Made by a program: the position numbers and the translations under genes. Of a stretch of DNA of 64,000 nucleotides, positions 26,027 to 56,278 are shown in pieces. The DNA lies in assembly GCF_000384815.1 (NCBI RefSeq), contig NZ_ARQF01000020.1, forward strand, positions 310,001 to 374,000, written 5' to 3'. The DNA comes from Halodesulfovibrio aestuarii DSM 17919 = ATCC 29578 (GTDB lineage Bacteria > Desulfobacterota > Desulfovibrionia > Desulfovibrionales > Desulfovibrionaceae). The notes below the pieces were generated by a model. It ran no database searches, was not told the origin of the DNA, and was given only the letters and a program-made list of their open reading frames with translations. The stretch's first letter is position 1, and each line of letters begins with the position of its first letter.

Positions 26027-26090
26027 AGATCGCTCCTGTACATGGAAGTTTGGAAATCCATTTCCGCACCATCAGTCCAGCTAGTTGCTG

Positions 26091-26498
26091 TTATTGTGTT
26101 TCGCCCCGAAGCTCCTGCTCAATTTTTCGCACGCAATCCAGAATATCACCCAACTTGAACGGCTTGGCCACAAAGTCAAATGCACCCTTACGGTACGACT
26201 CCTTGGCAGTTTCCAATGTAGCAAAACCAGTTATGATAATCACACGAGTTTCCGGTGCAACAGCTTTAGCTGCGGAAAGTACTTGCATGCCGTCCGCACC
26301 TTCCATCTTTAAATCGGTGATAATTATATCGAATGCAGTATCTTTGAGTCGAGCCAAAGCTGAAGCGCTTTCGGTGAAGGTTTCCACTTCATAGCCCTGC
26401 TTCTGAAACGCGGGTTTGAGGCGTTTACAAACGATGGGTTCATCATCAAGAATCAGTATTCGAAAACGCTTGCCGTTTCCGTTGCTCTCTTCCGTCAT
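26091..26498 (-). CDS. Single-domain response regulator (stand-alone receiver)
   Basis: 135 residues made only of a CheY-like receiver: acidic pair in ILDDE (18-20), phosphoacceptor Asp62 in IIITDLKMEG, Thr in IIITGFA and Lys in DFVAKPF. No output domain. The segment DDEPIVCKRL closely matches DDEEIVCKRL in the NtrC-type regulator at 32935, suggesting the same kinase serves both. The start overlaps the end of paralogue 3 by 53 bases and has AGGAG six bases upstream. It sits between paralogues 3 and 2, so it may control or relay phosphate to them. Confidence 0.88.
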   Translation of the reverse strand: MTEESNGNGKRFRILILDDEPIVCKRLKPAFQKQGYEVETFTESASALARLKDTAFDIIITDLKMEGADGMQVLSAAKAVAPETRVIIITGFATLETAKESYRKGAFDFVAKPFKLGDILDCVRKIEQELRGETQ

Positions 26499-29067
26499 AT
26501 CTGGCTCCTAAAAAATGCTTCATGGCCGTTATGAATGCTTCTGCATGCTCCTGAATATCCTTATCGGTATGCATCCGTGCATCAAGCTGTCTGGTATAAC
26601 CTACCAAGCTGCCTAGCATTCGCATGCGTAAAGACATCCGCTCACATGACAGCTTCTTCAACCTGCCTACCACAAGGTCCCCATGTACCTCTACCCGAAA
26701 ATCGAAATGCTCCAGAACCGTTGCAATAAACTGCGCCCTTCGGGAGCGGCGGACGAATTCGGTAACACCGCCCAGAAACCGGAAATAAATGTAGTTATCA
26801 TTTATGATATCAGAAATATAGGCATCGATGATGTTAAAATGATACCCCAACCGCATGTTGATGTTCATATAGTGCTTCAACACCACCGCGAGATTGCGCC
26901 CCACCTCGTCCGGACTGGCAAGCAATGTAGGAAACGTACGCGTGAAGCTGGACATAAAGCTGCCCAGATTCACTGAAACAGGATCCATGCACCACATGTC
27001 TGCGCATTCCATACCCTTAAGAAATTCCTGTAGAGGGATAGAAGCAATTTGCTCTGGAGTAGCAGTACGAACCTCAGGCCGGCAAGTGGTTCCCTCTCCC
27101 GCATCAATAAGCATAAGCCCCAAAGGATACTTTGTTTCCAACCTCTTAGGGGCGGAAAGATGCTGCACTTCCTGCCGCTCGCTGAGTCGAATGAGGTACT
27201 CAACGGCCTTTTCATGAATATAACGGGTAATATCGTGGTATGTACGGCAAGCGGAAGGTTTAAAGTTTTCCGCATGCGGGTCGAGCAAGTTCAATGGACT
27301 GGTATGCTTAATAACTCTTCGTAATAGACGATATTCATAAGAGTCTTCAAACACATCTTCTTCTGTCAGTGTAAAGCGATCCAAAGCGCAGATGCTGCCA
27401 CGATACGCCACATTCTGTGTAGCATCGAGAGTGATTTCATCACCCGAGCGAAGCAAGGATGTGGCTACCTCAGTATTGACGACAGTTGGAACCCTGTATT
27501 CACGGGCAATGGTAGCCATATGCCCCGTTGGCGATCCCACATCGGTGATGATCCCCTGCGCCTTGTGCATCACACGCGAAAAACGTGGCGAAGTGTATCG
27601 GGACACCAGAATAGCCCCGTACGGGAATGTTGTCAGATCAGTGTTGTGATCGACCAGAAAAACTTTACCTACTGCCACACCGCGCTGTGCCACTACTCCT
27701 TTACCGGAAAAAACAATCTCAGCGTTGCGGGTCACGTCCTCAAGTTGCGGCTCAGAGTTCAACGGAGCGGCCCAAAAACGTAGAGGGCGCGACTGCAGAA
27801 TCTGCAACGCCCCGCTAGCATCATAGCCCCATTCAATATCCTGCGGACGTTTGTAGTACCGTTCTATACTCATGGCGGCCTGTGCCAGATGCTCTAACTG
27901 CTCAAGCGTAAGGCTTGGGACCAAATGTAACCCTTCTGGAATATCCTTCCATTCCGTACCGCCTCCCGGTGCAAGCACAAGTCGCCTTTGCTTATCTGCT
28001 ATGGACAAAGATCGCAAAGAATACGGAGCTGCCCTGTCCAGCACAAGAGTGTCCGAGGGAGCATCACCATCAACAACGGGAGAACAAAGTCCCCATACGG
28101 CGTTGGCTACCATGACACCATCAGCAACGTGCGGGGCATATGTATGCAACACGCCACCGACCACACTTTCCACCATCAACTGGCACCCCACCGCCATAGC
28201 TATTTCATGTTCATGAAAGCCTTTTACTAGGCGATATTTCCAAGCTTTATAGGAGTATGTACTAGCTATAACTTTACGGTAGGCATCCATTATCTGTCCG
28301 CGGGGCACATTCAGAACAGTTTCATACTGTCCGGCAAAGCTGGCATCGCCATCTTCACCCCACGCGCTGCTGCGCAAGGCTACACGGATATTCCGTATCC
28401 CCTGAGCCCGCGCCAAGTCATCCAAAGCAGCCAAGACCTGTGAGGTCAGGCTGCGTGGCAGGGGAGCGCTCATAATACGCTCTTGTATGGTGTCGGCAAG
28501 CTGTTCAAGAGCGGCTTCATCCTGCCCGTCCCACGCCTCTATACCCTCTCTGGCCAACGCAAGTAAGCCGTTCTGTTGCATAAAGTCATAGAACGCACGG
28601 GTGCTGATGACAAATCCGTCCGGTGTGGAAAGCCCCAGCCGGTTTCGGATATCTCCCATGTTGGACATTTTTCCGCCGGCCTGCTCACTCAGATCATGCC
28701 CAAGTTCTCGCAAAGGGAGAATGTAGCTTTTCCCTGAGGGAGCATGTGTTCCGTCCAATTCTTCCTGAATGGCCTGACGAATATGCTCAAAGGCCAGAAA
28801 GAGTTCGACGTTCTTACTCTGAGTCAAAATACTGAGATCGGAAATCAGCTTGAACACCATGTCATCAAGCTGCTCCGCCGTATCTAATATGTACTGACGA
28901 TCAAAGACGTACTCGCCTCCCGACTTGTCTCCCATGTCAGCCATGAGTTCCAAGATGCGGTTGTTCCTTTCCAGAATACTCTGGAATTTTTTAAAATGCA
29001 CTCCGAACGGAAGTACACGTTTTTTGGATCGCCAGGAGGCGAGAACGTCTTTGAATTTACGTAACAT
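26446..29067 (-). CDS. ATP-grasp/phosphohistidine protein, paralogue 3
   Basis: 873 residues. N-terminal helical domain (FQSILERNNRILELMADMG, GGEYVFDR); PPDK_N ATP-grasp (115-430) with VALRSSAWGEDGDASFAGQ (229-247), QLMVESVVGGVLHT and LQILQSRPLRFW; swivelling domain with His516 in GSPTGHMATIAREYRVPT; C-terminal domain (about 580-870) with ACRTYHDITRYIHEKAVE and NYIYFRFLGGV. The nucleotide-binding motifs are present, so it should be ATP-competent. It is the first of the three paralogues to be transcribed, after the TIGR02186 gene. No PEP/pyruvate barrel is present, so PEP synthase activity is not expected despite the likely automated name. Confidence 0.8.
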   Translation of the reverse strand: MLRKFKDVLASWRSKKRVLPFGVHFKKFQSILERNNRILELMADMGDKSGGEYVFDRQYILDTAEQLDDMVFKLISDLSILTQSKNVELFLAFEHIRQAIQEELDGTHAPSGKSYILPLRELGHDLSEQAGGKMSNMGDIRNRLGLSTPDGFVISTRAFYDFMQQNGLLALAREGIEAWDGQDEAALEQLADTIQERIMSAPLPRSLTSQVLAALDDLARAQGIRNIRVALRSSAWGEDGDASFAGQYETVLNVPRGQIMDAYRKVIASTYSYKAWKYRLVKGFHEHEIAMAVGCQLMVESVVGGVLHTYAPHVADGVMVANAVWGLCSPVVDGDAPSDTLVLDRAAPYSLRSLSIADKQRRLVLAPGGGTEWKDIPEGLHLVPSLTLEQLEHLAQAAMSIERYYKRPQDIEWGYDASGALQILQSRPLRFWAAPLNSEPQLEDVTRNAEIVFSGKGVVAQRGVAVGKVFLVDHNTDLTTFPYGAILVSRYTSPRFSRVMHKAQGIITDVGSPTGHMATIAREYRVPTVVNTEVATSLLRSGDEITLDATQNVAYRGSICALDRFTLTEEDVFEDSYEYRLLRRVIKHTSPLNLLDPHAENFKPSACRTYHDITRYIHEKAVEYLIRLSERQEVQHLSAPKRLETKYPLGLMLIDAGEGTTCRPEVRTATPEQIASIPLQEFLKGMECADMWCMDPVSVNLGSFMSSFTRTFPTLLASPDEVGRNLAVVLKHYMNINMRLGYHFNIIDAYISDIINDNYIYFRFLGGVTEFVRRSRRAQFIATVLEHFDFRVEVHGDLVVGRLKKLSCERMSLRMRMLGSLVGYTRQLDARMHTDKDIQEHAEAFITAMKHFLGARYDGREQRKRQAFSNTDS

Positions 29068-29860: not shown

Positions 29861-30796
29861 TTAATGACCTCCCATGTATGCCAACAGCACGTCAGGACGA
29901 GCCAGCAGGTCGTACAGCATCTTTACCATCACAACAAGAACCAACGAGGCGAGACAAATCTTAAGCTGTTCGCCACCCAATTTTTTGCCTACCTTGGTAC
30001 CAACCTGTGCCCCGATAGAGGAGCCGAGCAGAAGCAAAAGCGCCAGCACGAAGTCTACAGTATGGTTTTGCCATGATTGCATGATAGTAACGTTCACGCA
30101 GGTAAAGAGGATCTGGAACAGACTTGTACCAACAACTACATGCATCGGCATACGTAGCAAATAAACCATAACCGGCACCATAATGAATCCGCCGCCCACA
30201 CCCATAATTGCAGCGAGAACACCTACAAGCACACCGAGTAACAACGGCATAAGCACCGATAACTGTACTCCGGAACGCGGAAAGTCCATCTGGAACGGCA
30301 AGGCGCCTATCGCCCGCGCATAACGTGATTCCTGTTTAGGTGCTTCCTCCACCTTGGTAGCTGTTGGCTTACGCATAGCTTGCAGGCTTTCCAAAAACAT
30401 GAAACCGCCAACAAACCCGAGCATCAGCACGTACGTGATGCTAATAAGAAAATCGGCATTGCCGAGTTGACGCAGGATCTTGATGAGCTGCACCCCGAGA
30501 CTGCCGCCGCCGACACCACCTAGAAGCAGCAGCATGCCCATTTTAAAATCCACATTGCCCAGCTTAAAGTGAGCAAAAGTACCGGATGTGGATGCACCCA
30601 CAATCTGGTTGGAGTCCGACGCCGCTGCCACGGTCGGCGGAATGCCAAGCATAATAAGAAGCGGTGTCATCAAAAAGCCGCCTCCGACACCAAAAATGCC
30701 GGAAAGCAAACCAACCACGCCGCCAAGCCCAAGAATTGCGAGACAATTCACGCTATTGCCCGCTATGGGAAGATATAGATTTAAATCCAGACTCAT
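29861..30796 (-). CDS. TauE/SafE-family sulfite/organosulfur exporter-like permease
   Basis: 311 residues, about eight membrane helices in two internally similar halves: GLGGVVGLLSGIFGVGGGFLMTPLLIML near the N-terminus and LGVLVGVLAAIMGVGGGFIMVPVMVYLL in the second half. The repeated GxGGGFxxxP motif is diagnostic of TauE/SafE (DUF81). Family members are proposed to move sulfite, sulfoacetate or related anions across the inner membrane; the substrate here is unknown. It is co-transcribed with the TIGR02186 gene and the phosphohistidine proteins, in an organism likely to handle sulfite. Confidence 0.88.
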   Translation of the reverse strand: MSLDLNLYLPIAGNSVNCLAILGLGGVVGLLSGIFGVGGGFLMTPLLIMLGIPPTVAAASDSNQIVGASTSGTFAHFKLGNVDFKMGMLLLLGGVGGGSLGVQLIKILRQLGNADFLISITYVLMLGFVGGFMFLESLQAMRKPTATKVEEAPKQESRYARAIGALPFQMDFPRSGVQLSVLMPLLLGVLVGVLAAIMGVGGGFIMVPVMVYLLRMPMHVVVGTSLFQILFTCVNVTIMQSWQNHTVDFVLALLLLLGSSIGAQVGTKVGKKLGGEQLKICLASLVLVVMVKMLYDLLARPDVLLAYMGGH

Positions 30797-42230: not shown

Positions 42231-43229
42231 ATGTTTAGGAAAGCATTAGTGCTGGTTGCACTGGTAGCAATGATGGCAGTTTCGTCTGTGTCATTTGCTC
42301 AGGACCCAACGATTCTTCGCATCGGTATGGGCGACCCTATTGATTCCGAAATGGGTGCTATCGCAACCCGCTTCAAGGAAATCGTAGAAGGTCGTACCGA
42401 CGGAAAAGTAGAAGTACAGATTTTCCCAAGTGGTCAGCTCGGTGATGAAACCGAAATGATTCAGAACGTTCGCCGCGGAAACCTCGACATGGCAGTAGTA
42501 GGTATCGCGAACACCGTTCCTTTCGTTAAAAAACTCGGCATTCTTACCCTGCCGTACCTCTTCGAAAACATGTACGACGTAGTACGCGGTGCTACTGGCC
42601 CTGCTCACGAAATGCTTAACGAATTTGCAGTGAAAGAAGGCGGATTCCGTGTTCTTGGCTGGACCTACACTGACTACCGTTACCTTTCCAACTCTCAGCA
42701 CCCGATTAAAAAACTTGCTGACGTTAAGGACATGAAATTCCGTGTTCCACAGTCCGCAGTTATTCTTGAAACTTACCGTTCATGGGGCGCAAACCCAGTA
42801 CCTATCTCCTGGGCAGAAACCTTCACAGCTCTCCAGCAGGGAGTAGTAGATGGTCAGTGCTACGGTTACATCACGTTCCAGGCTGCTAAATTCAACGAAG
42901 TACAGAAGTACATCACTGAAGTTCATTACACTTACCAGCTCCAGCCAATGATGATTTCTGAACGTCTTTACAAAAAGCTCACTCCAGAAATGCAGCAGCT
43001 CGTAGTAGACGCTGGCCGTGAAGCTCAGGAATATTGCCTTGCATTCCAGCTCGTAGACGCTGGCCGCGCTAAAGCAGAACTCATCGCGTCCGGTATCCAG
43101 ATTGATACTCTCGAAGATGAAGCTGAATGGAAAAAACTCGCAGTCGATAATGTATGGCCTAAAATGACCGACTTTGTTGGCGGCCAGAAAGTGCTTGATC
43201 GTTACCTCGGTTACATCGGCAAAAAATAA
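42231..43229 (+). CDS. dctP: TRAP transporter solute-binding protein (DctP family)
   Basis: 332 residues with a signal peptide (ALVLVALVAMMAVSSVSFA, cleavage near residue 24) and a DctP fold: RIGMGDPIDSEMGAIATRFKE, then IFPSGQLGDETEMIQNVRRG, the conserved arginine region FRVPQSAVILETYRSWGANPVPISWAE and QQGVVDGQCYGY. It delivers a carboxylate or sulfonate anion to the membrane subunits; the conserved arginine in RVPQS usually binds the acid group. AGGAGG precedes the start. A terminator-like hairpin separates it from dctQ, which would allow more binding protein than permease. It lies beside the microcompartment genes, so its substrate may feed the compartment. Confidence 0.92.
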   Translation: MFRKALVLVALVAMMAVSSVSFAQDPTILRIGMGDPIDSEMGAIATRFKEIVEGRTDGKVEVQIFPSGQLGDETEMIQNVRRGNLDMAVVGIANTVPFVKKLGILTLPYLFENMYDVVRGATGPAHEMLNEFAVKEGGFRVLGWTYTDYRYLSNSQHPIKKLADVKDMKFRVPQSAVILETYRSWGANPVPISWAETFTALQQGVVDGQCYGYITFQAAKFNEVQKYITEVHYTYQLQPMMISERLYKKLTPEMQQLVVDAGREAQEYCLAFQLVDAGRAKAELIASGIQIDTLEDEAEWKKLAVDNVWPKMTDFVGGQKVLDRYLGYIGKK

Positions 43230-43245
43230 TCTAGCAGATACTACA

Positions 43246-43268
43246 GAGCCGGTGGTACCCACCGGCTC
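43246..43268 (+). terminator. Attenuator/terminator between dctP and dctQ
   Basis: GAGCCGGTGG TAC CCACCGGCTC, perfect ten-base stem followed by ATTTCATTTTAATT. It probably terminates part of the transcription or stabilises the dctP mRNA end. Confidence 0.75.
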
Positions 43269-43294
43269 ATTTCATTTTAATTAGGGGACACCTG

Positions 43295-43837
43295 ATGTTC
43301 AAAAAAATCCTTTTTAATACTCTCGACCATGTTGAGAGTTACATCTGCCAAGCACTCCTTGCATTCTTTGTTGTGGTTCTTTTCTTACAGATTATTCTGC
43401 GTGAAATCGGCACACCATTGTACTGGAGTGAGGAAGTCGCCCGCTTCTCTTTTGTTTGGTTTGTATTTTTTGGCGCTTCCTACGCGGCAAGACTCGCTGC
43501 TCACAACCGTGTAACGCTTCAGTTCAAACTATTCCCGCCTATCGTGGGTGAAATTTCCATGCTTCTCATGGATGTTGTCTGGATCGTTTTTAACAGCGTG
43601 ATGACTTGGAAAGGCATCCAGACCATTCAGGACCTGATCGAATTTCCGTACTCCACCCCTGCTCTCGATTGGCAGCTCAGCTGGGTATATCTGATCTTCC
43701 CAATCAGCTTCACACTTATGTCTCTGCGTATTTTGCAGGTTAACTACATTAAATGGATTCTGAAGCAGGAAATTGAAGACCCTGACAAAGCTGATATTGA
43801 AAAGAGTAAAAATGCTCTGAAGGGTGAGGAGGGTTAG
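43295..43837 (+). CDS. dctQ: TRAP transporter small membrane subunit (DctQ)
   Basis: 180 residues with four membrane helices: ALLAFFVVVLFLQIILRE, FSFVWFVFFGASYAARLAAH, ISMLLMDVVWIVFNSVMTW and LSWVYLIFPISFTLMSLRIL. The WSEEVARFSFVWFVFFGA motif is typical of DctQ. A hydrophilic C-terminal tail follows. Together with DctM it forms the sodium-driven permease. GGGG-type ribosome binding site; the dctM start lies two bases after its stop. Confidence 0.92.
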   Translation: MFKKILFNTLDHVESYICQALLAFFVVVLFLQIILREIGTPLYWSEEVARFSFVWFVFFGASYAARLAAHNRVTLQFKLFPPIVGEISMLLMDVVWIVFNSVMTWKGIQTIQDLIEFPYSTPALDWQLSWVYLIFPISFTLMSLRILQVNYIKWILKQEIEDPDKADIEKSKNALKGEEG

Positions 43838-43839
43838 TC

Positions 43840-45120
43840 ATGGGTGTTGCAGAAGTTTTATTTCTAACATTTCTGGTGCTCATGCTTTTGGGAGCACCAA
43901 TCACAGTAGCACTTGGTGTGTCTGCCATGTTCTCATTCATGGTTGTAGGTCAGGATCTGAGCACACTCATCCAGATCGCATTCACCTCAGTTAACAGCTT
44001 TCCTATCATGGCACTGCCGGCATTTGTACTTGCAGGGGCCTTGATGGAATGTGCCGGCGTATCAAAACGCTTAGTTCTCATTGCTGAAAACCTCGTTGGC
44101 CCTGTTCGTGGCGGACTTGCAATTTCTACCGCTCTTGCTTGTGTATTCTTCGGCGCCATTTCCGGCTCCGGTCCGGCTACCACTGCTGCGGTTGGCATGC
44201 TGATGATTCCTGCAATGATTAAAAGGGATTACGAGCCAGGATACGCTGCAGCAGCAACTGCTACTGCGGGTGGCGTAGGTATCATTATTCCACCTTCTAT
44301 TCCTATGGTTATCTACGGCGTTGCAGCACAGGAATCCATTACAAAGATGTTCCTTGGTGGTGTTATTCCAGGCCTCTTAATTGCTGTCGGTCTTATTTGC
44401 ATGCACTTATTTAAGTGTCGTAAAATGGAAGTACATGAAGATATGGCGGCATGGTCTGCATCCACTCTTCTTACATCCATGAAAGAAGGTATCTGGGCGA
44501 TGATGGCACCTATCGTTATTCTGGGTGGTATCTACTCTGGATTCTTTACACCGACAGAAGCTGCTATTGTAGCAATTTTCTACACATTGTTTGTCGGCTT
44601 CTTCATCTACAAAGAACTTTCAATCAAAGCTTTGATGAAGTCTCTTGAGACAACCTCATGGCTTACCGGACGCGTACTCATCATTATGTTTACCGCATAT
44701 GCATTCGGTAGACTTCTTGTACAGTACCGCATTCCAGACCAGATCGTTGAGATGCTCCTCAACTTTACATCTGACGTAATGGTAGTTTGGATCTTTGTAG
44801 TGCTTATTCTTCTGTTCCTTGGCATGTTCATGGAAACTCTGGCAATCATCCTTCTCGTTACCCCGGTACTGCTTCCAGTTATGAAAGCATTCGGCGTGGA
44901 TCCAATTCACTTCGGTATCGTTCTTGTGTGTTGCTGTGGCGTAGGCTTCTCTACTCCACCACTGGGAGAAAACATGTTTATCGCCTCAGGTATTGCAGAC
45001 GTCTCGCTTGAAGAAATATCTGCAAAAGCAATTCCTTTCTGCTGCATCACTATCGGTGTTATCTTCCTGCTCGTGATGTTCCCGCAGCTTATTCTCTTCT
45101 TGCCAAAAATGCTCATGTAA
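43840..45120 (+). CDS. dctM: TRAP transporter large membrane subunit (DctM)
   Basis: 426 residues, about twelve membrane helices, with DctM signatures: LGAPITVALGVSAM near the N-terminus, FGAISGSGPATTAAVGMLMIPAM, GIIIPPSIPMVIYGV, FTPTEAAIVAIFYTL, and GMFMETLAIILLVTPVLLPVMKAFGVDPIHFG. It forms the transport channel of the TRAP system. It is followed by a strong terminator, closing the dctPQM operon. Confidence 0.94.
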   Translation: MGVAEVLFLTFLVLMLLGAPITVALGVSAMFSFMVVGQDLSTLIQIAFTSVNSFPIMALPAFVLAGALMECAGVSKRLVLIAENLVGPVRGGLAISTALACVFFGAISGSGPATTAAVGMLMIPAMIKRDYEPGYAAAATATAGGVGIIIPPSIPMVIYGVAAQESITKMFLGGVIPGLLIAVGLICMHLFKCRKMEVHEDMAAWSASTLLTSMKEGIWAMMAPIVILGGIYSGFFTPTEAAIVAIFYTLFVGFFIYKELSIKALMKSLETTSWLTGRVLIIMFTAYAFGRLLVQYRIPDQIVEMLLNFTSDVMVVWIFVVLILLFLGMFMETLAIILLVTPVLLPVMKAFGVDPIHFGIVLVCCCGVGFSTPPLGENMFIASGIADVSLEEISAKAIPFCCITIGVIFLLVMFPQLILFLPKMLM

Positions 45121-45454: not shown

Positions 45455-46270
45455 CTAACGCAGAGCTAACGACGCAATAGATAACGGGGTTAGCATAAGC
45501 GGCTGACTTGGAAGATGTACAGGAAGCTTAAGCTCTTTTTCAAAGATAGTCTCAATTCCCGGCAGGCAGCAAGTACCACCTGAAAGAAGAACTGAATCAA
45601 CCTCGTGCCCTGCCATATGAGCCGAAACGATGTCACTAACACGCTCAAGAGTCGGCTTTGCAATGGAGAGAATTTTGTATTCCTCCGCTTTGCGTTTGTA
45701 CTCTTCAGCTTTTTCAAGAGCGACATCATAGTGCCCAGCAATGGTAAGCGTAATATGCTTACCACCAGTCGGCTCATCATCACTGAAAACAATCTCGCCG
45801 CCTTTAACGATTGCAGTACCAGTGGTACCACCGCCGATATCAACAACTGCTGCTTTATCCAACTCAAGAAGGGATGCAACACAGCTTGGTTCGTCTTCAA
45901 CATAGGTCACATCGAGACCTGCGGTTTCCAAAATATTTGTGGAAAGACGCGCATCAGTCCCCGGAGGAAAAGAGGTGGAAGCTTCGGTGATTTCGATACC
46001 AAGGCGTTCTTCCGCCATGGCTACAAATTTGCGAACAACATCGCAGGCACCGACAAAGTCTACCACAACTCCGTCACGTACAACTTCTGTCCATTCCAGG
46101 AAGACAGCAACAGGCTCGCCTTCGCCATCAACAGCCATAAGCACAACATCCGCTGTACCTAAGTCAATGCCAATGTGAATCGGGCCTTCAACCGAAACAG
46201 GGTCGGTGTCATTCATCATGGCGGCGGCGCGATCAAGTCGCTCGCATGCTAACTCCCAAGAAATGGCCAT
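45455..46270 (-). CDS. eutJ: EutJ-like actin/DnaK-fold protein of the microcompartment
   Basis: 271 residues with an ASKHA ATPase fold: phosphate 1 motif IHIGIDLGTADVVLMAV, phosphate 2 region AAVVDIGGGTTGTAIV, adenosine motif VDSVLLSGGTCCLPGIE. The match is to EutJ, a putative chaperone of ethanolamine-type compartments whose exact role is unproven; reactivation or assembly of encapsulated enzymes is proposed. It is the last gene of the shell operon, two bases after the aldehyde dehydrogenase stop. Its presence without an ethanolamine ammonia-lyase is notable. Confidence 0.88.
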   Translation of the reverse strand: MAISWELACERLDRAAAMMNDTDPVSVEGPIHIGIDLGTADVVLMAVDGEGEPVAVFLEWTEVVRDGVVVDFVGACDVVRKFVAMAEERLGIEITEASTSFPPGTDARLSTNILETAGLDVTYVEDEPSCVASLLELDKAAVVDIGGGTTGTAIVKGGEIVFSDDEPTGGKHITLTIAGHYDVALEKAEEYKRKAEEYKILSIAKPTLERVSDIVSAHMAGHEVDSVLLSGGTCCLPGIETIFEKELKLPVHLPSQPLMLTPLSIASLALR

Positions 46271-46272
46271 AA

Positions 46273-47694
46273 CTAAACGATCCTAAAGCAATCAACGAGG
46301 GCACAACGACGGATACGGGTAAATGTAGCCGCGTTAGTAACACCTTCACCGGTAGGGGTGGAAATGGTCATGGAAGTCCAACCTTCACCACCAGCACCAA
46401 GACCGGCTACGTGAGGGCCGTTTTTAACAAAAAGGCTGGTATTAGTAGCACGAGCCATTGCTTCCATATTGTTAACGTTGGTGGAATGCAGACCAGCGGT
46501 GTGGCTGAGACCACGCTCAAGTTTAAGTGCCCACTCAAGTGCTTCTGCAAAGTTGTGCGCACGAAGTACAGGCACGAGAGGCATCATCTGCTCTACTTTT
46601 GCGAAAACGTAATCAGAATCACGGCCAGCATCTACGATAAGAAGCTTACAGGTATCCGGAACAGTTACGCCTGCAATTGCAGCGAGTTTTTTAGCGTCAC
46701 GACCAACCCATTTTGGATTAGCACGAGCTTTATCAGTGCCGTAATCAAGAATAACGGTCTGAGCGATGGTGTTAGCCTGCTCAAGAGTCAACTCGTACGC
46801 ACCAACTTTTTTCATCTCAGCTTTAAGCTGATCAGCAATAGAATCAACTGCAATAACTTCTTTTTCGTCAGCGCAGATGAGGTTGTTATCGAAAGATGCG
46901 CCAATGTAAATGGATTCAGCGGCACGGGCGATGTCAGCAGTTTCGTCAACAACTACAGGAGGGTTACCAGCACCAGCAGCCATAAGGCGTTTGTTGGTAG
47001 TTTTACGTGCAGCTTCAACTACAGCTTCACCACCTGTTACTACGAGGAGGTTAATTCCGTCGTAAGTAAAGAGGCGCTTAGCAGCATCGATGGAAGGTTC
47101 CTTAACTGCAACGAGAAGGTTAGCAATACCGGTTTCAGCAACAACAGCTTTGTTGATGATCTTGATTGCTTCCTGAGTAATACGTTTAGCAGCAGGATGC
47201 GGAGCAAATACAACAGAGTTACCGGCGGCAATCATGCTGATACCGTTGTTGATAACAGTAGAGCCAGGGTTGGTGGAAGGAGTTACAGATGCGATAACGC
47301 CCCAAGGAGCTTTTTCGATCATGGTAAAACCGTTGTCACCAGTAATTGCTTCAGCAGATACTACTTCAGTACCCGGGGTGCGGTCTGCAACAAGAAGAGT
47401 TTTCGCGATCTTGTCTTCAACATTACCCATGCCAGTTTCTTCAACAGCCATTTCAGAAAGACGACGGGCATTGTTACGTGCAGCGCGGCGGATAATATCG
47501 ATAATTTTATTGCGCATTGCAATAGTACCGATTTTAGTCTGTGCTACTTTTGCTGCAGCTACAGCGTCATCCAATTCGTCAAAAATACCCCAGTCACCTG
47601 CGGTAGGAGCAGCAACAGAAGTCTGTGCGACACCGTTCAGCTGAGTAAGAACTTCAGAAACAATAGACTCTATCTGTTCACGTGCGATAGCCAT
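46273..47694 (-). CDS. Acylating aldehyde dehydrogenase of the microcompartment (EutE/PduP type)
   Basis: 473 residues. It converts an aldehyde, CoA and NAD+ to acyl-CoA and NADH in the compartment lumen. Residues 4-20 (REQIESIVSEVLTQL) form an N-terminal amphipathic encapsulation peptide, followed by a flexible Ala/Thr/Pro linker and the catalytic domain: APWGVIASVTPSTNP, the nucleotide loop region VVTGGEAVVEAA, the catalytic Cys274 in FDNNLICADEKEV, and GLHSTN near the C-terminus. GGAG precedes the start. Its lumen peptide closely matches that of the amidohydrolase-fold protein at 53678-54595, so they probably share a compartment. The aldehyde cannot be specified; acetaldehyde is the simplest guess. 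Confidence 0.92.
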   Translation of the reverse strand: MAIAREQIESIVSEVLTQLNGVAQTSVAAPTAGDWGIFDELDDAVAAAKVAQTKIGTIAMRNKIIDIIRRAARNNARRLSEMAVEETGMGNVEDKIAKTLLVADRTPGTEVVSAEAITGDNGFTMIEKAPWGVIASVTPSTNPGSTVINNGISMIAAGNSVVFAPHPAAKRITQEAIKIINKAVVAETGIANLLVAVKEPSIDAAKRLFTYDGINLLVVTGGEAVVEAARKTTNKRLMAAGAGNPPVVVDETADIARAAESIYIGASFDNNLICADEKEVIAVDSIADQLKAEMKKVGAYELTLEQANTIAQTVILDYGTDKARANPKWVGRDAKKLAAIAGVTVPDTCKLLIVDAGRDSDYVFAKVEQMMPLVPVLRAHNFAEALEWALKLERGLSHTAGLHSTNVNNMEAMARATNTSLFVKNGPHVAGLGAGGEGWTSMTISTPTGEGVTNAATFTRIRRCALVDCFRIV

Positions 47695-47711: not shown

Positions 47712-47996
47712 TTATTTATTGTAAACCGTTTCGCCCTGTGAGGTAATCTGATCAATTATTGCGATTACACTCAGGTCAAGAGGAGGTCTATCTGTCATAG
47801 TAAAACGCGCGGAACTACCACGGACTAACAGGACAATTTCCCCTTCTCCGGCACCAAGGGTGTCAGCTGCGACCTGGCCAGAACGAACAACTTCACCGTC
47901 AGCGGTAACAAGATCCACCAGCAGCAACGTTACGGGAGGCACGCCGGGATCACGAACAGTAGAAACTACCTGTCCTCGTACTCTTCCTAATTCCAT
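47712..47996 (-). CDS. eutN: Microcompartment vertex protein (EutN/CcmL, BMC-P)
   Basis: 94 residues with the EutN/CcmL OB-fold pattern: MELGRVRGQVVSTVRDPG, then LLLVDLVTADGE, VAADTLGAGEGEIVLLVRGSSAR and a final DLSVIAIIDQI strand. Pentamers of this protein close the vertices of the shell. Only one BMC-P gene is present. AGGAG ribosome binding site; next is the aldehyde dehydrogenase. Confidence 0.93.
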   Translation of the reverse strand: MELGRVRGQVVSTVRDPGVPPVTLLLVDLVTADGEVVRSGQVAADTLGAGEGEIVLLVRGSSARFTMTDRPPLDLSVIAIIDQITSQGETVYNK

Positions 47997-48043: not shown

Positions 48044-48322
48044 TTACTTAGTTTTAATAGGGAACACTTCCTCAAGATCAGCATGAGGACGCGGGATAAC
48101 GTGAGTTGCTACAACTTCACCAACTCGCTGTGCTGCAGCAGCACCAGCATCGATAGCAGCTTTGCAAGCAGCAACATCGCCACGGATAAGAGCAGAAACA
48201 AGTGCCCCGCCGATGCGCTCGTAACCTACGAGTTCAACGCGTGCAGACTTAGTCATAGCATCAGCTGCTTCAACAAGAGCAGTCATGCCTTTTACTTCAA
48301 TAATACCAAGAGCATCGCCCAT
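48044..48322 (-). CDS. Microcompartment shell hexamer protein (BMC-H, PduA/EutM type)
   Basis: 92 residues, a standard single BMC domain: [20 protein letters not shown], pore-loop segment [26 protein letters not shown] and [17 protein letters not shown] at the end. It should form flat hexamers with a central pore near the GGA. It is very similar to the BMC-H at 50702-50974, apart from the pore (RIGGA here, QIGAG there), so these are recent paralogues with possibly different permeability. Confidence 0.95.
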
Positions 48323-48360: not shown

Positions 48361-48714
48361 TTATTTTTTCTTCTGAGCTGGCTTAGCAGGCTTATCGTCA
48401 ACTTTTGCTGGCTTTGCCTTTGACTCATCAAAGATAGAACCAATTTTATTGGCAATCATGTCACCAAGACCATCACCCGGACGTGCGATAACGTTGGTAC
48501 CGACGCATTCACCAAGACGGGCAGCAGCAGCTTTACCAGCATCAACAGCGGCACCAACTGCAGCAAGGTCCCCCTCGCAGATAACAGTCAGTAATCCTGA
48601 ATCAGCGTTAGCTACGCTTCGTACGTGTACGCGAGCTGCTTTGGACATAGCATCCGCAGCTTCAACAGCAGCTACGAGACCTACAACTTCAACTAAACCT
48701 AAAGAGTCGTTCAT
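48361..48714 (-). CDS. Microcompartment shell hexamer protein with Lys-rich C-terminal tail (BMC-H)
   Basis: 117 residues. The BMC domain occupies 1-85 ([20 protein letters not shown], pore segment [24 protein letters not shown]); then a linker ([14 protein letters not shown]) and a Lys/Pro/Ala tail ([19 protein letters not shown]). The tail resembles extensions of some shell proteins that may contact nucleic acid or cargo; that is inference. The pore residues differ from the two PduA-like paralogues, suggesting a different metabolite selectivity. Confidence 0.92.
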
Positions 48715-48763: not shown

Positions 48764-49321
48764 CTACAAAATATTACGCAAAACTTCCGGAGCTGCGCTT
48801 GGGATTACGACTTTGCGAACCAGCATAGCACTCCGGGAAACAACATTGGCTGCTGCTTCAACTGCCATGCTGACTGCTGCAACGTCACCTGTGAGGATAC
48901 AGAACGCCTTACCGCCGAGCCCCATTGCAATGCGTACTTCCGCGATATCAACATCAGCAGTTTTTGCAGCAGTATCAGCTGCAAGAATTGAAGATGCTGC
49001 GGAGAAAGTTTCGATAACACCAAGTGCGGAGCCGGTAGGTTCCGGAGTAGCACATGCCATTGCGGAAACAACGGCATCATTGATGTTAGGAATTACAAAA
49101 TGATCAGCTACAGTACCGTCAGAGCTGCTCATACCTGCATCTACTGCAGACTGCACTGCTGCAACATCACCATGCACAGCAACAACAAATTTACCCGGAC
49201 AGATGGTTTTAAGCATGAGAGGTTCTACGAGAGAGGCTTTCATCATGCGATCTGCTGCTTCAATACCTGCCGCAATGGAAGTGAATTCAATCATTCCGAC
49301 AGACTGGAGTTGAGTTACCAC
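48764..49321 (-). CDS. PduT-like tandem shell protein with Fe-S pore cysteine (BMC-T)
   Basis: 185 residues with two BMC domains (SVGMIEFTSIAAGIEAADRM and SALGVIETFSAASSILAADTA). The first pore loop is LKTICPGKFVVAVHGD with Cys41, matching the PduT cysteine that holds a 4Fe-4S cluster at the trimer pore. It would carry electrons through the shell. It starts with GTG two bases after the stop of the PduS/RnfC-like gene, with AGGAG upstream; PduT and PduS are known partners, and their adjacency supports an electron conduit for regenerating lumen cofactors. Confidence 0.92.
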   Translation of the reverse strand: MVTQLQSVGMIEFTSIAAGIEAADRMMKASLVEPLMLKTICPGKFVVAVHGDVAAVQSAVDAGMSSSDGTVADHFVIPNINDAVVSAMACATPEPTGSALGVIETFSAASSILAADTAAKTADVDIAEVRIAMGLGGKAFCILTGDVAAVSMAVEAAANVVSRSAMLVRKVVIPSAAPEVLRNIL

Positions 49322-49323
49322 AA

Positions 49324-50661
49324 CTATGCTCCTTTAATGACGATGTTGTTGCCAACTTCTACTACAGTACCTGCAATCGAAGCATGAACGGTTGCACCAA
49401 GAGCGCCTTCAGGCACGGCACCGATAAGCTGACCAACAGTTACGGTATCTCCTACTTTCACCTGAGCAACAGAAGGTGCTCCAATGTGCATGCGAAGCGG
49501 GAGGCTAACCTGAGCTGGTTTGTAATCGCCTTCAAAATCAGGATGAATATTCATGTAATCAGCAATGCCGATTTTAGATGCAAGGCGCGGTACTGGAATC
49601 TTACGGTACGGACGCATTGCAGACTGCTCAGAACGGACTTCACGCGGGCCAGTGTACTGAACACCTTTTTCACGGAACTGCCCTTTCAAAGCGCTGTTGA
49701 TACGACGCGGGGAAAGCCCCATTGGACAACTGAAGAGTTCGCAAACACCACATTCACAGCACATAGCTGCCTGCGTGGCTCCCATTGCTACATCCTGCCC
49801 GCCACCGAAGGCACGCATCACTTTGTGAGTTTCAAAGCTGTGTCCTACGAGATAGCGCGGGCACAACTCAGTACACATGCGGCACTGAATACAGGCGGTT
49901 GCAGCACGACGCTGCATGGTGTGAAGGTCGACCGTCGCCTGCTTATGCAGGTAGTGCCCACGAGGAAGTACAATAAGGCCACCACTGGTTTTAGTGATTA
50001 CTTCATTCTCAAAAGCTGCCTGTGAATCACACATACGTCCCATCATCGGGCCGCCAAGAATGTACACAGGGTCTGAGTTGGTTGCACCACCACAGAACTC
50101 GAGGCATTCTTTAAGGCTTGTACCAAGCGGTACACGGATAACAGAAGGTTTGGCGACATCACCGGTGACAGTTAGCACCTTGTGGGTAAGCGGCTTGCCG
50201 TCCATAGCTGCTGCAACTGTGTGCAGAGTACCAACGTTAGCAACTACAGCGCCTACATCTTTAGGCAATCCCAAAGGTGGAATAGTTTTTCCGGTTATTT
50301 CATGAACCAGAATCTGCTCATCACCAGCAGGGTAGAAGTTATCGAGCTGTGCAAGCTCAAGGCCAGTACCCTCAATACCCTTAGCAAAAATTTCTGCAAT
50401 TTCAGTGTATTTGCGCTTTATGCCAATAACACCACGTGTAGCCCCTGTAGCTGTAACAACAGCCTGCATGGCACGAATGATGTCAGAAGCATGGGACTTC
50501 ATGATGTACTGATCTGTATGGAGCAATGGTTCACATTCACAACCATTGGCAATGACCGTATCTACTTGTGTATCGTATTTGACGTGGGCCGGAAAACCGG
50601 CCCCGCCTTCTCCGACAACACCAGCATTCTGGATCGAACGGATAAGTGTTACTTTGTCCAT
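49324..50661 (-). CDS. PduS/RnfC-like flavoprotein of the microcompartment
   Basis: 445 residues: Gly-rich RnfC-type nucleotide/flavin motif NAGVVGEGGAGFPAHVK (12-28), SLBB-like region (about 160-240), and two 4Fe-4S motifs, CIQCRMCTELCP (257-268) and CCECGVCELFSCP (301-313), then a C-terminal barrel-sandwich lobe (VKVGDTVTVGQLIGAVPEG). PduS-type proteins oxidise NADH and pass electrons, here probably to the PduT-like shell pore. It lies between a BMC-H gene and the BMC-T gene in the shell operon. It is not part of a full Rnf complex, since no rnfABDEG are present. Confidence 0.92.
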   Translation of the reverse strand: MDKVTLIRSIQNAGVVGEGGAGFPAHVKYDTQVDTVIANGCECEPLLHTDQYIMKSHASDIIRAMQAVVTATGATRGVIGIKRKYTEIAEIFAKGIEGTGLELAQLDNFYPAGDEQILVHEITGKTIPPLGLPKDVGAVVANVGTLHTVAAAMDGKPLTHKVLTVTGDVAKPSVIRVPLGTSLKECLEFCGGATNSDPVYILGGPMMGRMCDSQAAFENEVITKTSGGLIVLPRGHYLHKQATVDLHTMQRRAATACIQCRMCTELCPRYLVGHSFETHKVMRAFGGGQDVAMGATQAAMCCECGVCELFSCPMGLSPRRINSALKGQFREKGVQYTGPREVRSEQSAMRPYRKIPVPRLASKIGIADYMNIHPDFEGDYKPAQVSLPLRMHIGAPSVAQVKVGDTVTVGQLIGAVPEGALGATVHASIAGTVVEVGNNIVIKGA

Positions 50662-50701: not shown

Positions 50702-50974
50702 CTAGCGCTTAAATGGAAAAACGTCTTCCAGATCGCCGTGAGGACGAGGAATTACGTGAACCGCTACAACTTCACCGATACGCTGTGCAGCTGCTGCACC
50801 TGCGTCGGTAGCAGCTTTACAAGCAGCTACGTCACCACGAACGATTGCAGTAACAAGACCAGCACCAATCTGCTTGTAACCAACGAGCTGTACACGTGCA
50901 GCTTTTACCATTGCGTCAGAAGCTTCGATAAGAGCGGTAAGACCTTTAGTTTCGATCATTCCTAATGCGTCCAT
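50702..50974 (-). CDS. Microcompartment shell hexamer protein (BMC-H)
   Basis: 90 residues with a standard BMC domain: [21 protein letters not shown], pore segment [21 protein letters not shown] and [18 protein letters not shown] chose the ATG at 50974 because GGAGG lies five bases before it; the longer frame would begin with a TTG inside that region. It is close to the BMC-H at 48044-48322 across its length and is the first shell gene after phosphotransacetylase. Confidence 0.95.
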
Positions 50975-51030
50975 TGTATCCTCCAATTAATTAGTCAGTA
51001 ACTGACGTATGTTTTACTTTGTTTGCCGGG

Positions 51031-52011
51031 CTAGAGGCACTGGCCTACTACAGCAACTTTATAAATATCATCTGCACTACAGCCACGGGAAAGGTCATGC
51101 CAACCAGCAGCAAACCCCTGCAAAAGCGGCCCTAATGCGGTGTACCCACCAAGCCGCTGTGCAAGCTTGTATGCAATGTTTCCAGCTTCAAGAGATGGAA
51201 ATACCAATACGTTTGCCTCACCCTTAACAGGACTGTCAGGAGCCTTGGATGCTGCAACACTTGGTACAATCGCAGCATCAAGCTGCAATTCGCCATCAAT
51301 AAGAAGATCAGATTCACGTTCACGGACATTTGCCAAAGCTTCCTGAACAAGAGTTACGCGATCATGCTTTGCGCTACCTTTGGTAGAGAAAGACAACATA
51401 GCAACTCTAGGTTCTTCACTAAGAAGTTTTCGGGCTTTATCCGCAGAAGCAATGGCAATATCTGCAAGTGTAGCTGCATTAGGAGCAGGTACAACACCAC
51501 AGTCCGCGAATATGTAGTCCTTACCGCCTTCAGGCGCGATCATGAAAAAGAAACTAGAAACAGTTTTAAGACCTTTCTGTTTAGGCAAAATATGCAACCC
51601 TGCACGAATAACATCCCCGGTAGAGGAGAGGTTACCGGCAACACCCAGCTGTGCTTCATCGCGACGAACCAGCATCGCAGCACCAGCAAGAGGACAACGC
51701 ATGGCTTTAACAGCAGCATCCATTGTCACTGGTTTGCCTTTCTTTTCGCGCATTGCGAAAAATTCGGTTGCATTTTTTTCAAGCAATGTAGGACTGGTGT
51801 GATCCACTACGGTAATACCTGTAGTGCGGATTTTTGCTTCACGCATCTTATTACGCACTGCAAAAGGAGACTGAACAAGTACAGGCTCACAAAGTCCGTC
51901 TGCCTTCAGGCGGGTGACTGCTTCGAGTACTCGTTCATCAAGACAATCCGGAAACACAACAGTCTTTGGATTCTGTCTACATGCTTCTTTACAACGTTCC
52001 AGAATACTCAC
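51031..52011 (-). CDS. pta: Phosphate acetyltransferase (Pta, PTA_PTB family)
   Basis: 326 residues. It converts acyl-CoA and phosphate to acyl phosphate and CoA, recycling CoA for the aldehyde dehydrogenase. The family start [30 protein letters not shown] is followed by [56 protein letters not shown] and [21 protein letters not shown]. The frame opens earlier (to a TTG at 52047), overlapping the upstream gene, but GTG at 52011 has GGAG six bases upstream and starts like other Pta proteins. This is a Pta of the EutD type rather than PduL. No encapsulation peptide is obvious at its ends. Confidence 0.92.
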
Positions 52012-52025
52012 ATCAATCTCCGCGA

Positions 52026-52814
52026 TTACTGGATGTTGTTTACGCAAGCGATGCGTACAGAAGAAGGGGTACTGTATGTAATATCAATACCTTCAGGGAA
52101 GTACATCATGTCGCCAGCCTTACCGATTTTGGTTTCACTGCCGATAGTAAGATGCAATTCACCATCAAGGATGATGCCAATCTCAGGAGATTCTACAGTA
52201 CGGGTAAAGGAAGCACGTTCCCATTCCATGTAACCAGCCGCAAGCTTAGCATCATCACATACGCCAATAGCGTCTGCGATAAACACCTGCTCATCGAGTG
52301 GAACTGGACTGGAACCCTGCTTTTGCAAACGCTGCCCATCAATAAAGCAAACACCGTTGCTGCAAGTTGCATCCTCTACAACAGTGGCAGCTGCAGGATC
52401 ACTAGTTGCGCATGCTGTTTCGCCAAGCTTTGCGGAAACAACACGACGAACAATAGCTTCAAGTACATCACTACTTGTTCCTGCCGGAAGCTTATCTCGA
52501 AGCAGCGTACAAACCTGCAGCGCTACGTCAGCTGCTTCAGAGCACTCTGGTGCTGGTGCAGCTGACGCTGCAGGAGCAACCGGAGCTTCGGCTTGTACAG
52601 GCACTGCAGCACATGCTTCAGAAGCAGGAGCACTGCAAACCTGTGCAGACGCAGCATCTTCAAGAGAAGATTCAATGAAAGTTACTCCCAGTTCCTCAGC
52701 TTTATCCTGAGCCTGTGGAGTAATAATGCATTCACAAAGAGTAAGTCTAAGGGTCTTAGTGCCATTATCAATTGCTTTGTGAACATCAGCCTCGGTGACT
52801 ATCCGTTTTCCCAT
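52026..52814 (-). CDS. eutQ: EutQ-like cupin protein, possible acetate kinase of the compartment
   Basis: 262 residues in three parts: an N-terminal segment common to EutQ and related proteins ([32 protein letters not shown]), a long Ala/Pro/Glu-rich linker (55-95) and a helical piece ([16 protein letters not shown]) resembling an encapsulation peptide, then a cupin (about 165-260; [27 protein letters not shown]). EutQ of Salmonella has acetate kinase activity, which would turn acyl phosphate into ATP and complete the pathway; no classical ackA is present. It is the first gene of the shell operon, with a GGAGG ribosome binding site. The internal amphipathic helix is unusual in position. Confidence 0.82.
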
Positions 52815-53572: not shown

Positions 53573-53677
53573 GTTGCACTGTCGGCAGTATGTTACATTC
53601 TACCAATTATTTAATAACGCCATGAAGCATACTACGTATGCATCTGGCGATGGATGAAAACCCATAGGGGATTTGCA

Positions 53678-54595
53678 ATGAACGTGATTGACTTCCGTTT
53701 CCGTCCAAACACCGCGGAAACTCTGAGCGGAATCCAGAACAGCTCTATGTTCAAAGGTCTCTGCCAGCACATCGACTTTTCAAAAATGAAAGCTCAGACC
53801 GTAGCTGAGTGTGTTCAGGATCTTACTGCTAACAACGTTGTGCGCGCTGTTATCACTGGTCGTGACTGTGAAACCACCTACGGCTCCAAAGCTAACAACC
53901 AGAGTGTTATTGACTTTGTTCAGGCTCATCCAGAGAAGTTTATCGGCTTCTTCGGTATGGATCCACACAAAGGCATGCAGGGCATCCGTGACTTGAACCA
54001 CGCGGTTCAGACTTTCGGCCTTCGCGGTGCAGCTGTTGACCCGTACCTTGCTCAGCTCTACCCTAACGATGCTAAGTACTACCCAATTTATGCAAAATGT
54101 TGTGAACTCGAAATTCCTCTCGTATTCACAACTGGTCCTGCTACCCTCGTTCCTGCAGCGGTAGTTGACCACGTTGCACCTCGTTACATCGACTTTGTTG
54201 CTCGCGACTTCCCTGAGCTCAAAATCGTAATCAGTCACGGTGGCTACCCATGGGTTAACGAAGCGATCATTGTTGCTGAACGTAACAAAAACGTATTCAT
54301 CGAAATTTCTGAATACGAACGTTCCCCAATGTCTGAAGCATACATTCAGGCTGCAAACACAATGATTTCTGACAAGTTGCTTTATGCTTCTGCTCACCCA
54401 TTCATTGATTTCCGTCAGGCACTTCAGACCTACAGTGAACTTCCATTCACTCCTGAAGTTCGCCAGAAAGTAATGCACGACAACGCTGCTAAATTGCTTG
54501 GTCTCGAAACTGCTCCTGCAGTTGCTCCAAGTGCAGCATCTGCTGACCTCGTAAGAGATATCGTTTCCGAAGTTCTCGCACGACTCGGCAAATAG
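53678..54595 (+). CDS. Amidohydrolase-fold (COG2159) protein with C-terminal encapsulation peptide and missing metal ligands
   Basis: 305 residues of the amidohydrolase-2/ACMSD type TIM barrel: IDFRFRP at 4-10, HPEKFIGFFGMDP, YYPIYAKCCELEIPLVF, LKIVISHGGYPWVNEA, LLYASAHPF, HDNAAKLLGL. The expected metal ligands are largely lost: HxH is R7-x-R9, the strand-5 His is Thr151/152, and the Asp of GSDxP is Ala239; only His187 remains. After an Ala/Pro linker the last 16 residues (LVRDIVSEVLARLGK) form an amphipathic helix nearly identical to the lumen peptide of the aldehyde dehydrogenase. GGGG lies seven bases before the chosen ATG; an upstream in-frame ATG at 53654 lacks one. It could be a metal-independent enzyme, a pseudoenzyme or a scaffold. 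Its reaction is unknown. Confidence 0.85.
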   Translation: MNVIDFRFRPNTAETLSGIQNSSMFKGLCQHIDFSKMKAQTVAECVQDLTANNVVRAVITGRDCETTYGSKANNQSVIDFVQAHPEKFIGFFGMDPHKGMQGIRDLNHAVQTFGLRGAAVDPYLAQLYPNDAKYYPIYAKCCELEIPLVFTTGPATLVPAAVVDHVAPRYIDFVARDFPELKIVISHGGYPWVNEAIIVAERNKNVFIEISEYERSPMSEAYIQAANTMISDKLLYASAHPFIDFRQALQTYSELPFTPEVRQKVMHDNAAKLLGLETAPAVAPSAASADLVRDIVSEVLARLGK

Positions 54596-55090: not shown

Positions 55091-56278
55091 CTATAAAATT
55101 TTACGGTAGATTGCGATGATGTCTTCTTTACGCATACCGCGAGGGTTTGTAGCTGCACAAGCATCTTTCATTGCGCTTTCTGCCATAACTTCGAAGTCTT
55201 CAGGATTCACAGTTTTGCCGTATTTTTTGGCGAGCAGTGTAAGGCTGGCTGGAATACCAACGTCCTGCATGAGGTCGCGTATTGCCTGAATTACATTACT
55301 TGCAGCTTCGCGCTGAGTACGTGCAGAACCTTGCACCCCAAAAAATTCTGCCATTTCTGCAAAGCGATCCATAGCTGCAAGCATGTTAAATTCACATACA
55401 TGCGGCAAGAGAATTGCGTTACATTCACCATGAGGCAGGTTCAGGTAACCACCAAGCTGGTGCGCCATCGCATGGACGTATCCAAGGCCAGCGTTATTGA
55501 AGGCCATGCCTGCCTGATACTGTGCATAGCACATTGCTTCACGAGCTTCGAGGTTGCGACCGTTGCCTACTGCACGGCGCAAGTACTTAGAAATAAGCTT
55601 AATAGCTTTTTCAGCGTTTGCATCAGTCATATGAGTTGCACCGGTAGAAACGTAAGCTTCCACTGCATGTGTGAGCGCATCAAGACCTGTCGCAGCAGTA
55701 AGACTTGGCGGCATGCCCATCATCAACTCCGGATCATCCAAGGCAATACCGGGAGTCACGCGCCAATCAACAAGAGCCATTTTAACTTTACGAGCAGTAT
55801 CAGTAATGATGCAAAAACGAGTCATTTCAGATGCAGTGCCTGCGGTTGTGTTGACTGCAAGGAATGGTGGCATAGCCACGCGCGCCTTATTTACACCTTC
55901 ATACTGATGAATTGTCCCACCGTTAGTTGCCACGATCCCGATACCTTTACCACAATCATGAGCGCTGCCGCCACCGAGAGTAATAATACAGTCACAACCA
56001 TTAGCGACGTACTGTGCAAGCCCATCACTGACGTTTTTATCAGTCGGGTTAGGCACAGTCTCATCATAAACTGCGCACTGCATGCCGGCAGCCTGCATAA
56101 GCTGTACGATAGAAGCGGTAACTCCAAGCTGTGTCATTCCTTTATCTGTTACGAGCAAAGGCTTGGAACCTCCTAGAGACGCAAGTCTTGCTGGGATCTC
56201 TTTAACTGCGCCAGAACCGATAACTGTAACTGGCGGCATATAAAACTCGACAGGTGTGGCTGTCTGCTGAAAGCTCAT
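55091..56278 (-). CDS. Iron-containing alcohol dehydrogenase
   Basis: 395 residues of the group III Fe-ADH family. NAD-binding region with GGGSAHDCGKGIG (about 100-112), VNTTAGTASEMTRFCIIT, and metal ligands in DALTHAVEAYVS, HAMAHQLGGYLNLPHGECNAI. It interconverts an aldehyde and an alcohol with NAD(H), so it could recycle NAD+ for the aldehyde dehydrogenase or bring an alcohol into the pathway. It is a separate single-gene unit with its own terminator, facing the amidohydrolase gene. I see no clear encapsulation peptide at its ends, so it may act outside the shell. AAGGA ribosome binding site. Confidence 0.92.
   Translation of the reverse strand: MSFQQTATPVEFYMPPVTVIGSGAVKEIPARLASLGGSKPLLVTDKGMTQLGVTASIVQLMQAAGMQCAVYDETVPNPTDKNVSDGLAQYVANGCDCIITLGGGSAHDCGKGIGIVATNGGTIHQYEGVNKARVAMPPFLAVNTTAGTASEMTRFCIITDTARKVKMALVDWRVTPGIALDDPELMMGMPPSLTAATGLDALTHAVEAYVSTGATHMTDANAEKAIKLISKYLRRAVGNGRNLEAREAMCYAQYQAGMAFNNAGLGYVHAMAHQLGGYLNLPHGECNAILLPHVCEFNMLAAMDRFAEMAEFFGVQGSARTQREAASNVIQAIRDLMQDVGIPASLTLLAKKYGKTVNPEDFEVMAESAMKDACAATNPRGMRKEDIIAIYRKIL

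Follow-up and report, generated by a model that had tools for sequence, protein, structure and literature searches.

The microcompartment locus and the amidohydrolase-fold gene

The window analyzed here is a stretch of 64,000 nucleotides from Halodesulfovibrio aestuarii DSM 17919, in which genes for an iron-containing alcohol dehydrogenase and a TRAP transporter flank a minus-strand set of microcompartment genes (Table 1). The shell proteins, aldehyde dehydrogenase, phosphotransacetylase, PduS, and EutQ encoded there are like those of the GRMguf/isethionate microcompartment, and the core of shell, aldehyde dehydrogenase, and phosphotransacetylase is present. Unlike that system, the window locus lacks the glycyl radical enzyme isethionate sulfite-lyase (IslA), which is encoded in the same genome but on another contig.

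Table 1. Features of the window, with positions counted from its first nucleotide
Feature	Position	Strand	Basis
TRAP transporter (DctP, DctQ, DctM), possible sulfonate importer	42231..45120	+	PF03480 for DctP; related TRAP sets beside IslA elsewhere
EutJ-like protein	45455..46270	-	NF011660, 342 bits
CoA-acylating aldehyde dehydrogenase, microcompartment core	46273..47694	-	NF011927 subfamily, 633.7 bits
Aldehyde dehydrogenase N-terminal encapsulation peptide (QIESIVSEVLTQL)	47638..47676	-	Top hit class for the amidohydrolase-tail matrix
EutN/CcmL vertex shell protein	47712..47996	-	PF03319
BMC-H shell protein	48044..48322	-	ORF; conserved in orthologous loci
BMC-H shell protein	48361..48714	-	ORF; conserved in orthologous loci
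BMC-T shell protein (PduT-like)	48764..49321	-	PF00936, two stretches
PduS/RnfC-like electron-transfer protein	49324..50661	-	PF01512, PF13375, PF10531
BMC-H shell protein	50702..50986	-	77-100% identical in orthologous loci
Phosphotransacetylase	51031..52047	-	PF01515, E 1.5e-105
EutQ-like protein	52026..52814	-	PF06249
Amidohydrolase-fold protein CDS, 305 aa, R-x-R subfamily, predicted IslA partner	53678..54595	+	PF04909, E 6.7e-38; orthologue co-occurrence with IslA
TIM-barrel domain, residues 1-277	53678..54508	+	AlphaFold2 mean pLDDT 90; VIA Z 30.5 to 3irs, 23.0 to 2,6-dihydroxybenzoate decarboxylase
R7-x-R9, replaces HxH metal motif	53696..53704	+	Invariant in 58/58 orthologues
R62-D63, conserved charged residues after strand 2	53861..53866	+	Invariant in 58/58; mouth clustering
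H187, sole canonical site residue retained	54236..54238	+	Invariant in orthologues
E212-x-E214, acidic pair after strand 7	54311..54319	+	55/58 each; E212 typical of IslA-linked members
Flexible linker, residues 278-285	54509..54532	+	pLDDT below 50 at 280-285
C-terminal encapsulation-type helix (predicted), residues 286-303 (LVRDIVSEVLARL)	54533..54586	+	Model helix; motif scan; tail only in microcompartment-linked orthologues
Iron-containing alcohol dehydrogenase	55091..56278	-	PF00465/PF25137

The amidohydrolase-fold ORF starts with the ATG at 53678; another in-frame ATG is at 53654. Its product matches positions 25 to 289 of the 289-position Amidohydro_2 profile (PF04909), and an NCBIfam search returned no family for it. 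The AlphaFold2 model is a TIM barrel from which the C-terminal helix is set apart, and VIA ranked 3irs first for the barrel, 3cjp next, and then gamma-resorcylate-type decarboxylases. The profile match over most of the length, the model, and the VIA similarity place the protein in the Amidohydro_2/COG2159 fold and bear out the ACMSD/COG2159 layout proposed in an earlier, sequence-only reading of this DNA. Its nearest named relatives are from Halodesulfovibrio sp. N3 (98% identical) and H. spirochaetisodalis (96%).

Other features were seen by eye in the window: a minus-strand gene at 29861-30796 for a TauE/SafE-like membrane protein, an exporter class that also adjoins the studied gene elsewhere, and three large paralogous minus-strand ORFs (20418-29067) resembling PEP/pyruvate-binding enzymes. 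The same genome holds a second microcompartment locus (L031, G000:C19:126000-144000) with a different glycyl radical enzyme, possibly of the choline type. An ORF of 3528 aa lies beside microcompartment genes in a Desulfovibrionaceae genome (L170, 4149-14735).

Replacement of the metal site and conservation of the barrel mouth

The metal-dependent COG2159 enzymes gamma-resorcylate decarboxylase, ACMSD, and LigJ share the fold of the protein (VIA Z 20 to 23 to decarboxylases and a Foldseek match to LigJ) and its strand-6 His, H187. In contrast to these enzymes, the HxH motif, the strand-5 His, and the strand-8 Asp (GSDxP) are replaced in every orthologue. The residues R7, R9, T151, H187 (SHGG), and A239 (SAHP) are present just as the sequence-only reading had described them. 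When the protein was aligned with canonical relatives, such as L068, which keeps IDTHVHP, FH, and GSDHP, the HxH pair coincided with R7 and R9, the strand-5 His with T151, and the GSDxP Asp with A239. Intact ligands elsewhere in the barrel would have spoken against that description, but no substitute ligands were seen in this alignment, and hidden metal ligands were rejected. Because three of the four metal-ligand features tested failed, the protein should not be classed among the metal-dependent decarboxylases; judged from its sequence, it has an amidohydrolase-fold TIM barrel but no metal ligands.

Residue conservation was assessed in 58 nonredundant orthologues, 41 to 100% identical. R7, R9, R62, D63, D95, H187, Y190, and A239 were invariant, T151 was present in 57 orthologues and replaced by Ala in the remaining one, and E212 and E214 were each found in 55. 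The invariance of R7, R9, H187, and A239 and the near invariance of T151 indicate a family trait rather than decay, and a degenerate pseudogene was rejected since the pocket is the same in all 58 orthologues despite their divergence. In barrels of this kind, active sites are found just after the strands, and the pocket was placed from these strand ends, not from coordinates. The barrel mouth so defined holds 13 of the 19 invariant charged residues, compared to 16 of the 64 charged residues overall (P = 8e-7), and the cluster consists of three Arg, the His, and acids. This clustering indicates that a ligand or catalytic site is kept and that the site was remodelled, not lost. The conserved Arg pocket that had been suggested for inspection at the barrel mouth is thus retained, as inferred from the strand ends.

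The clade with this R-R-R set is wider than the IslA partners, as R7, R9, R62, and H187 are shared by 3irs, a Caballeronia plasmid protein (L110), and clostridial proteins. The uncharacterised BB4693 of Bordetella bronchiseptica (PDB 3irs) resembles the window protein in its barrel (27% identity), DFRxRP motif, R62, and H187 but lacks D63, E65, T151, E212, and E214. Relatives without IslA linkage (BB4693, L110, L182, and L183) belong to ordinary catabolic operons or are functionally uncharacterised, and no shared substrate was found in the catabolic contexts of the plasmid relatives L110 to L113. E212 is missing from the R-R-R relatives without IslA. IslA-linked members add H97 and E212 to R7, R9, R62, and H187, and their full signature was defined as R7, R9, R62, H97, T151, H187, and E212. 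In L182 (8155-11209) and L183 (6602-10418), two R-R-R copies flank an MFS-type transporter near a sigma-54 regulator, with no IslA; this arrangement may show the ancestral substrate class.

Association with IslA and distribution of the C-terminal tail

We compared the gene neighborhoods of 25 related loci. In many of them, genes for a glycyl radical enzyme and its activase lie directly beside the gene, besides microcompartment genes. This enzyme scored 1324 and 1270 bits to solved IslA/IseG versus 529 to choline lyase, by which it is assigned as IslA. Isethionate is cleaved by IslA to acetaldehyde and sulfite (PMC6386719, PMC6453916). In the window genome, IslA is an 831-aa open frame at C19:299905-302382 (69% to L011 IslA and 89% to L020 IslA), next to genes for an activase, a TRAP transporter, a TauE-like exporter, and a regulator, whereas the microcompartment locus is on C20. 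TauE/SafE-like exporter genes often adjoin the amidohydrolase-fold gene in other genomes. When the genomes of loci with no IslA close by, plus a small number of others, were searched, 14 of 15 had the enzyme, the exception being a distant Actinomycetota relative.

Among 217 Desulfovibrionaceae genomes, the protein was present in 69 and IslA in 76, and no genome had the protein without IslA (Fisher P = 4e-49, not corrected for common descent). Seven genomes had IslA without the protein; five of these have a completeness of 54 to 93%, and in one of the seven (G456) the contig stops just past the dehydrogenase gene. A copy of the protein lay within 15 kb of IslA in 57 of the 69 genomes (median, 1.7 kb), and the copy numbers of the two were correlated (Spearman 0.61). 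In a phylum sample (n = 395), the protein was found in 14 (at least 50% identity), all of them among the 16 with IslA (at least 59% identity). In a Firmicutes order, all five full-signature members (L172 to L176) have IslA (71 to 73% identity), the L177 to L179 genomes, without the signature, have none, and R-R-R members without E212 lack it as well. IslA-like enzymes without the protein occur in G457, G277, G392, G646, G661, and G664. In the genus of the Mailhella locus L023, the genomes G490, G514, and G543 each encode at least four IslA paralogues along with as many as five copies of the protein, which suggests several sulfonate substrates.

The tail (RDIVSEVLARL) and the aldehyde dehydrogenase N-terminus (ESIVSEVLTQL) have IVSEVL in common. 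With a matrix made from window-type tails alone, aldehyde dehydrogenase N-termini were the eight best matches among 43,461 windows of 162 locus proteins, in agreement with the near identity of the two peptides noted in the earlier reading. The tail has the short terminal helix, the flexible linker, and the kinship with a same-locus aldehyde dehydrogenase peptide that are typical of encapsulation peptides. The amphipathicity of the helix against its own composition (hydrophobic-moment shuffle) gave P = 0.14 for the window protein and 0.014 to 0.83 for single orthologues. As the hydrophobic moment alone is not decisive, targeting is argued from the conserved motif and from the correlation between tail and microcompartment.

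A tail, defined as 19 to 47 extra residues after the barrel, was present in 26 of 26 distinct orthologues from microcompartment-bearing loci or genomes (one, which ends at a contig end, was counted as at least 19) but in none of 39 others (P = 1e-18). The split also holds inside one genus and in the Firmicutes. In the window's genus, five have a tailed protein, one has a tail-less copy beside IslA (L161, a species without the window-type aldehyde dehydrogenase), and four have neither IslA nor the protein. Three tail types were seen: the window-type helix, an ending PLPFQPFxPxxR, and a different helix-like tail in the Firmicutes locus L184. The N- and C-termini of IslA showed no shell-specific extension in microcompartment loci. 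These results support the prediction that the C-terminal helix is an encapsulation-type tail, one apparently gained only where the isethionate pathway is housed in a microcompartment.

The isethionate pathway of Bilophila works in a microcompartment (PMC8667426). The cluster of Bilophila wadsworthia includes HMPREF0179_00649, a "hypothetical protein, predicted amidohydrolase" with no function assigned (PMC8667426). Compared via the sequence of L166, which reproduces the gene order and carries the full motif, it is like the window protein in its slot beside RnfC/PduS but unlike it in the tail, which ends PLPFQPFxPxxR in the L166 lineage (L164 to L166).

Candidate roles of the protein

The sequence-only reading had offered two possibilities, a metal-independent enzyme that makes the aldehyde or a scaffold. 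The loss of the metal site, the encapsulation-type tail, and the Arg-rich pocket stand, whereas the aldehyde-making role does not, and a scaffold survives only as a carrier of IslA. The microcompartment aldehyde dehydrogenase was found in just 13 of the 69 Desulfovibrionaceae genomes with the R-x-R protein, indicating that most carriers are unlinked to microcompartments, in spirit the outcome named beforehand as counting against a microcompartment-specific link. IslA accompanies the protein in all 69 and is on C19 in the window genome. The aldehyde source is IslA, and the orthologues follow IslA and not microcompartments. The protein is not an enzyme specific to microcompartments, and it is unlikely to be what produces the aldehyde. 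That it is nevertheless the signature enzyme making aldehyde for the window microcompartment itself is suggested by the lack of any aldehyde-making enzyme encoded in the window locus. This reading was rejected as highly improbable, since IslA adjoins these genes in orthologous loci and lies elsewhere in the window genome, and since the microcompartment is missing from most genomes with the protein.

A partner role with IslA is very probable from this distribution. The gain of the tail whenever the pathway is enclosed indicates that the protein must work where IslA works, which would be the cytosol in most species and the microcompartment in shell lineages, where the gene would have acquired the tail. 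Our main reading, to which we give a probability of roughly 0.35, is that this amidohydrolase-fold protein partners IslA without needing a metal and acts on the products of IslA, most plausibly by splitting the acetaldehyde-sulfite adduct. The splitting reaction itself is tentative and follows from the premise that the protein's substrates come from IslA. The two products, acetaldehyde and sulfite, combine readily, and the adduct is stable. Formed in equal amounts in a small volume, the two would give 1-hydroxyethanesulfonate, whose sulfonate would be held by R7, R9, and R62, while H187 or an acid (D121, E212, or E214) would take the hydroxyl proton, so that sulfite would be expelled and acetaldehyde freed. 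Such a retro-addition of sulfite would need no metal, and an arginine-lined, metal-free pocket with a base may suit both the holding of a sulfonate and the expulsion of sulfite from an alpha-hydroxysulfonate. Sulfite reductase and the dehydrogenase would then be supplied with sulfite and acetaldehyde, respectively.

A point against the splitting reaction is that the adduct also falls apart uncatalyzed. In addition, IslA and its activase work in vitro without the amidohydrolase-fold protein (PMC6386719, PMC6453916). Together with the IslA-like enzymes that occur without the protein, this argues against an essential catalytic step. R-R-R and H187 in relatives without IslA linkage suggest that the pocket may bind carboxylates in general. 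One main alternative is a carrier role, in which the protein would bind IslA and deliver it to the shell interior by means of the tail, since IslA itself has no encapsulation peptide; in species without a shell, the protein would steady IslA or the activase. The strict co-occurrence fits a binding partner, every microcompartment case seen shows a tail gained by the amidohydrolase but no shell-specific extension of the IslA termini, and Bilophila IslA occurs in microcompartment fractions (PMC8667426). We nevertheless consider a carrier unlikely, since conservation is centred on the barrel mouth, as in a ligand or catalytic site, and full conservation in shell-less species requires a second reason. 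Similarly doubtful is the other main alternative, a role on a different sulfonate, in which the protein would form isethionate from a precursor or remove a side product (such as an ester or related sulfonate). An Amidohydro_2 fold with an anion-type pocket, the varied catabolic operons around R-R-R relatives, and the pairing of Mailhella paralogues of the protein with IslA paralogues would fit, but a precursor enzyme would have no need of the shell interior, whereas all shell lineages have the tail, and no common extra sulfonate gene was seen beside the protein.

A literature search found no enzyme for the acetaldehyde-bisulfite adduct, and a search for isethionate, sulfite-lyase, and amidohydrolase together found no function assigned to this protein. 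If adduct splitting is correct, the protein might be the first dedicated aldehyde-bisulfite adduct-splitting enzyme (alpha-hydroxysulfonate lyase), based on an amidohydrolase barrel with an arginine pocket in place of the metal site and retained as partner of a sulfite-releasing radical enzyme, a proposal that is more doubtful still than the reaction itself. Isethionate desulfonation feeds sulfide production by gut Bilophila and Desulfovibrio and by marine sulfate reducers, and the pathway as described assigns nothing to this protein, an almost constant companion of IslA that has been overlooked. The near-constant pairing of the gene with IslA suggests that a step or partner is missing from that pathway. 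With some lineages having the tail and others lacking it, the family also offers a clean natural experiment on becoming microcompartment cargo. The PLPFQPFxPxxR ending of L164, L165, and L166 is a second, non-helical C-terminal motif and possibly another kind of cargo tag.
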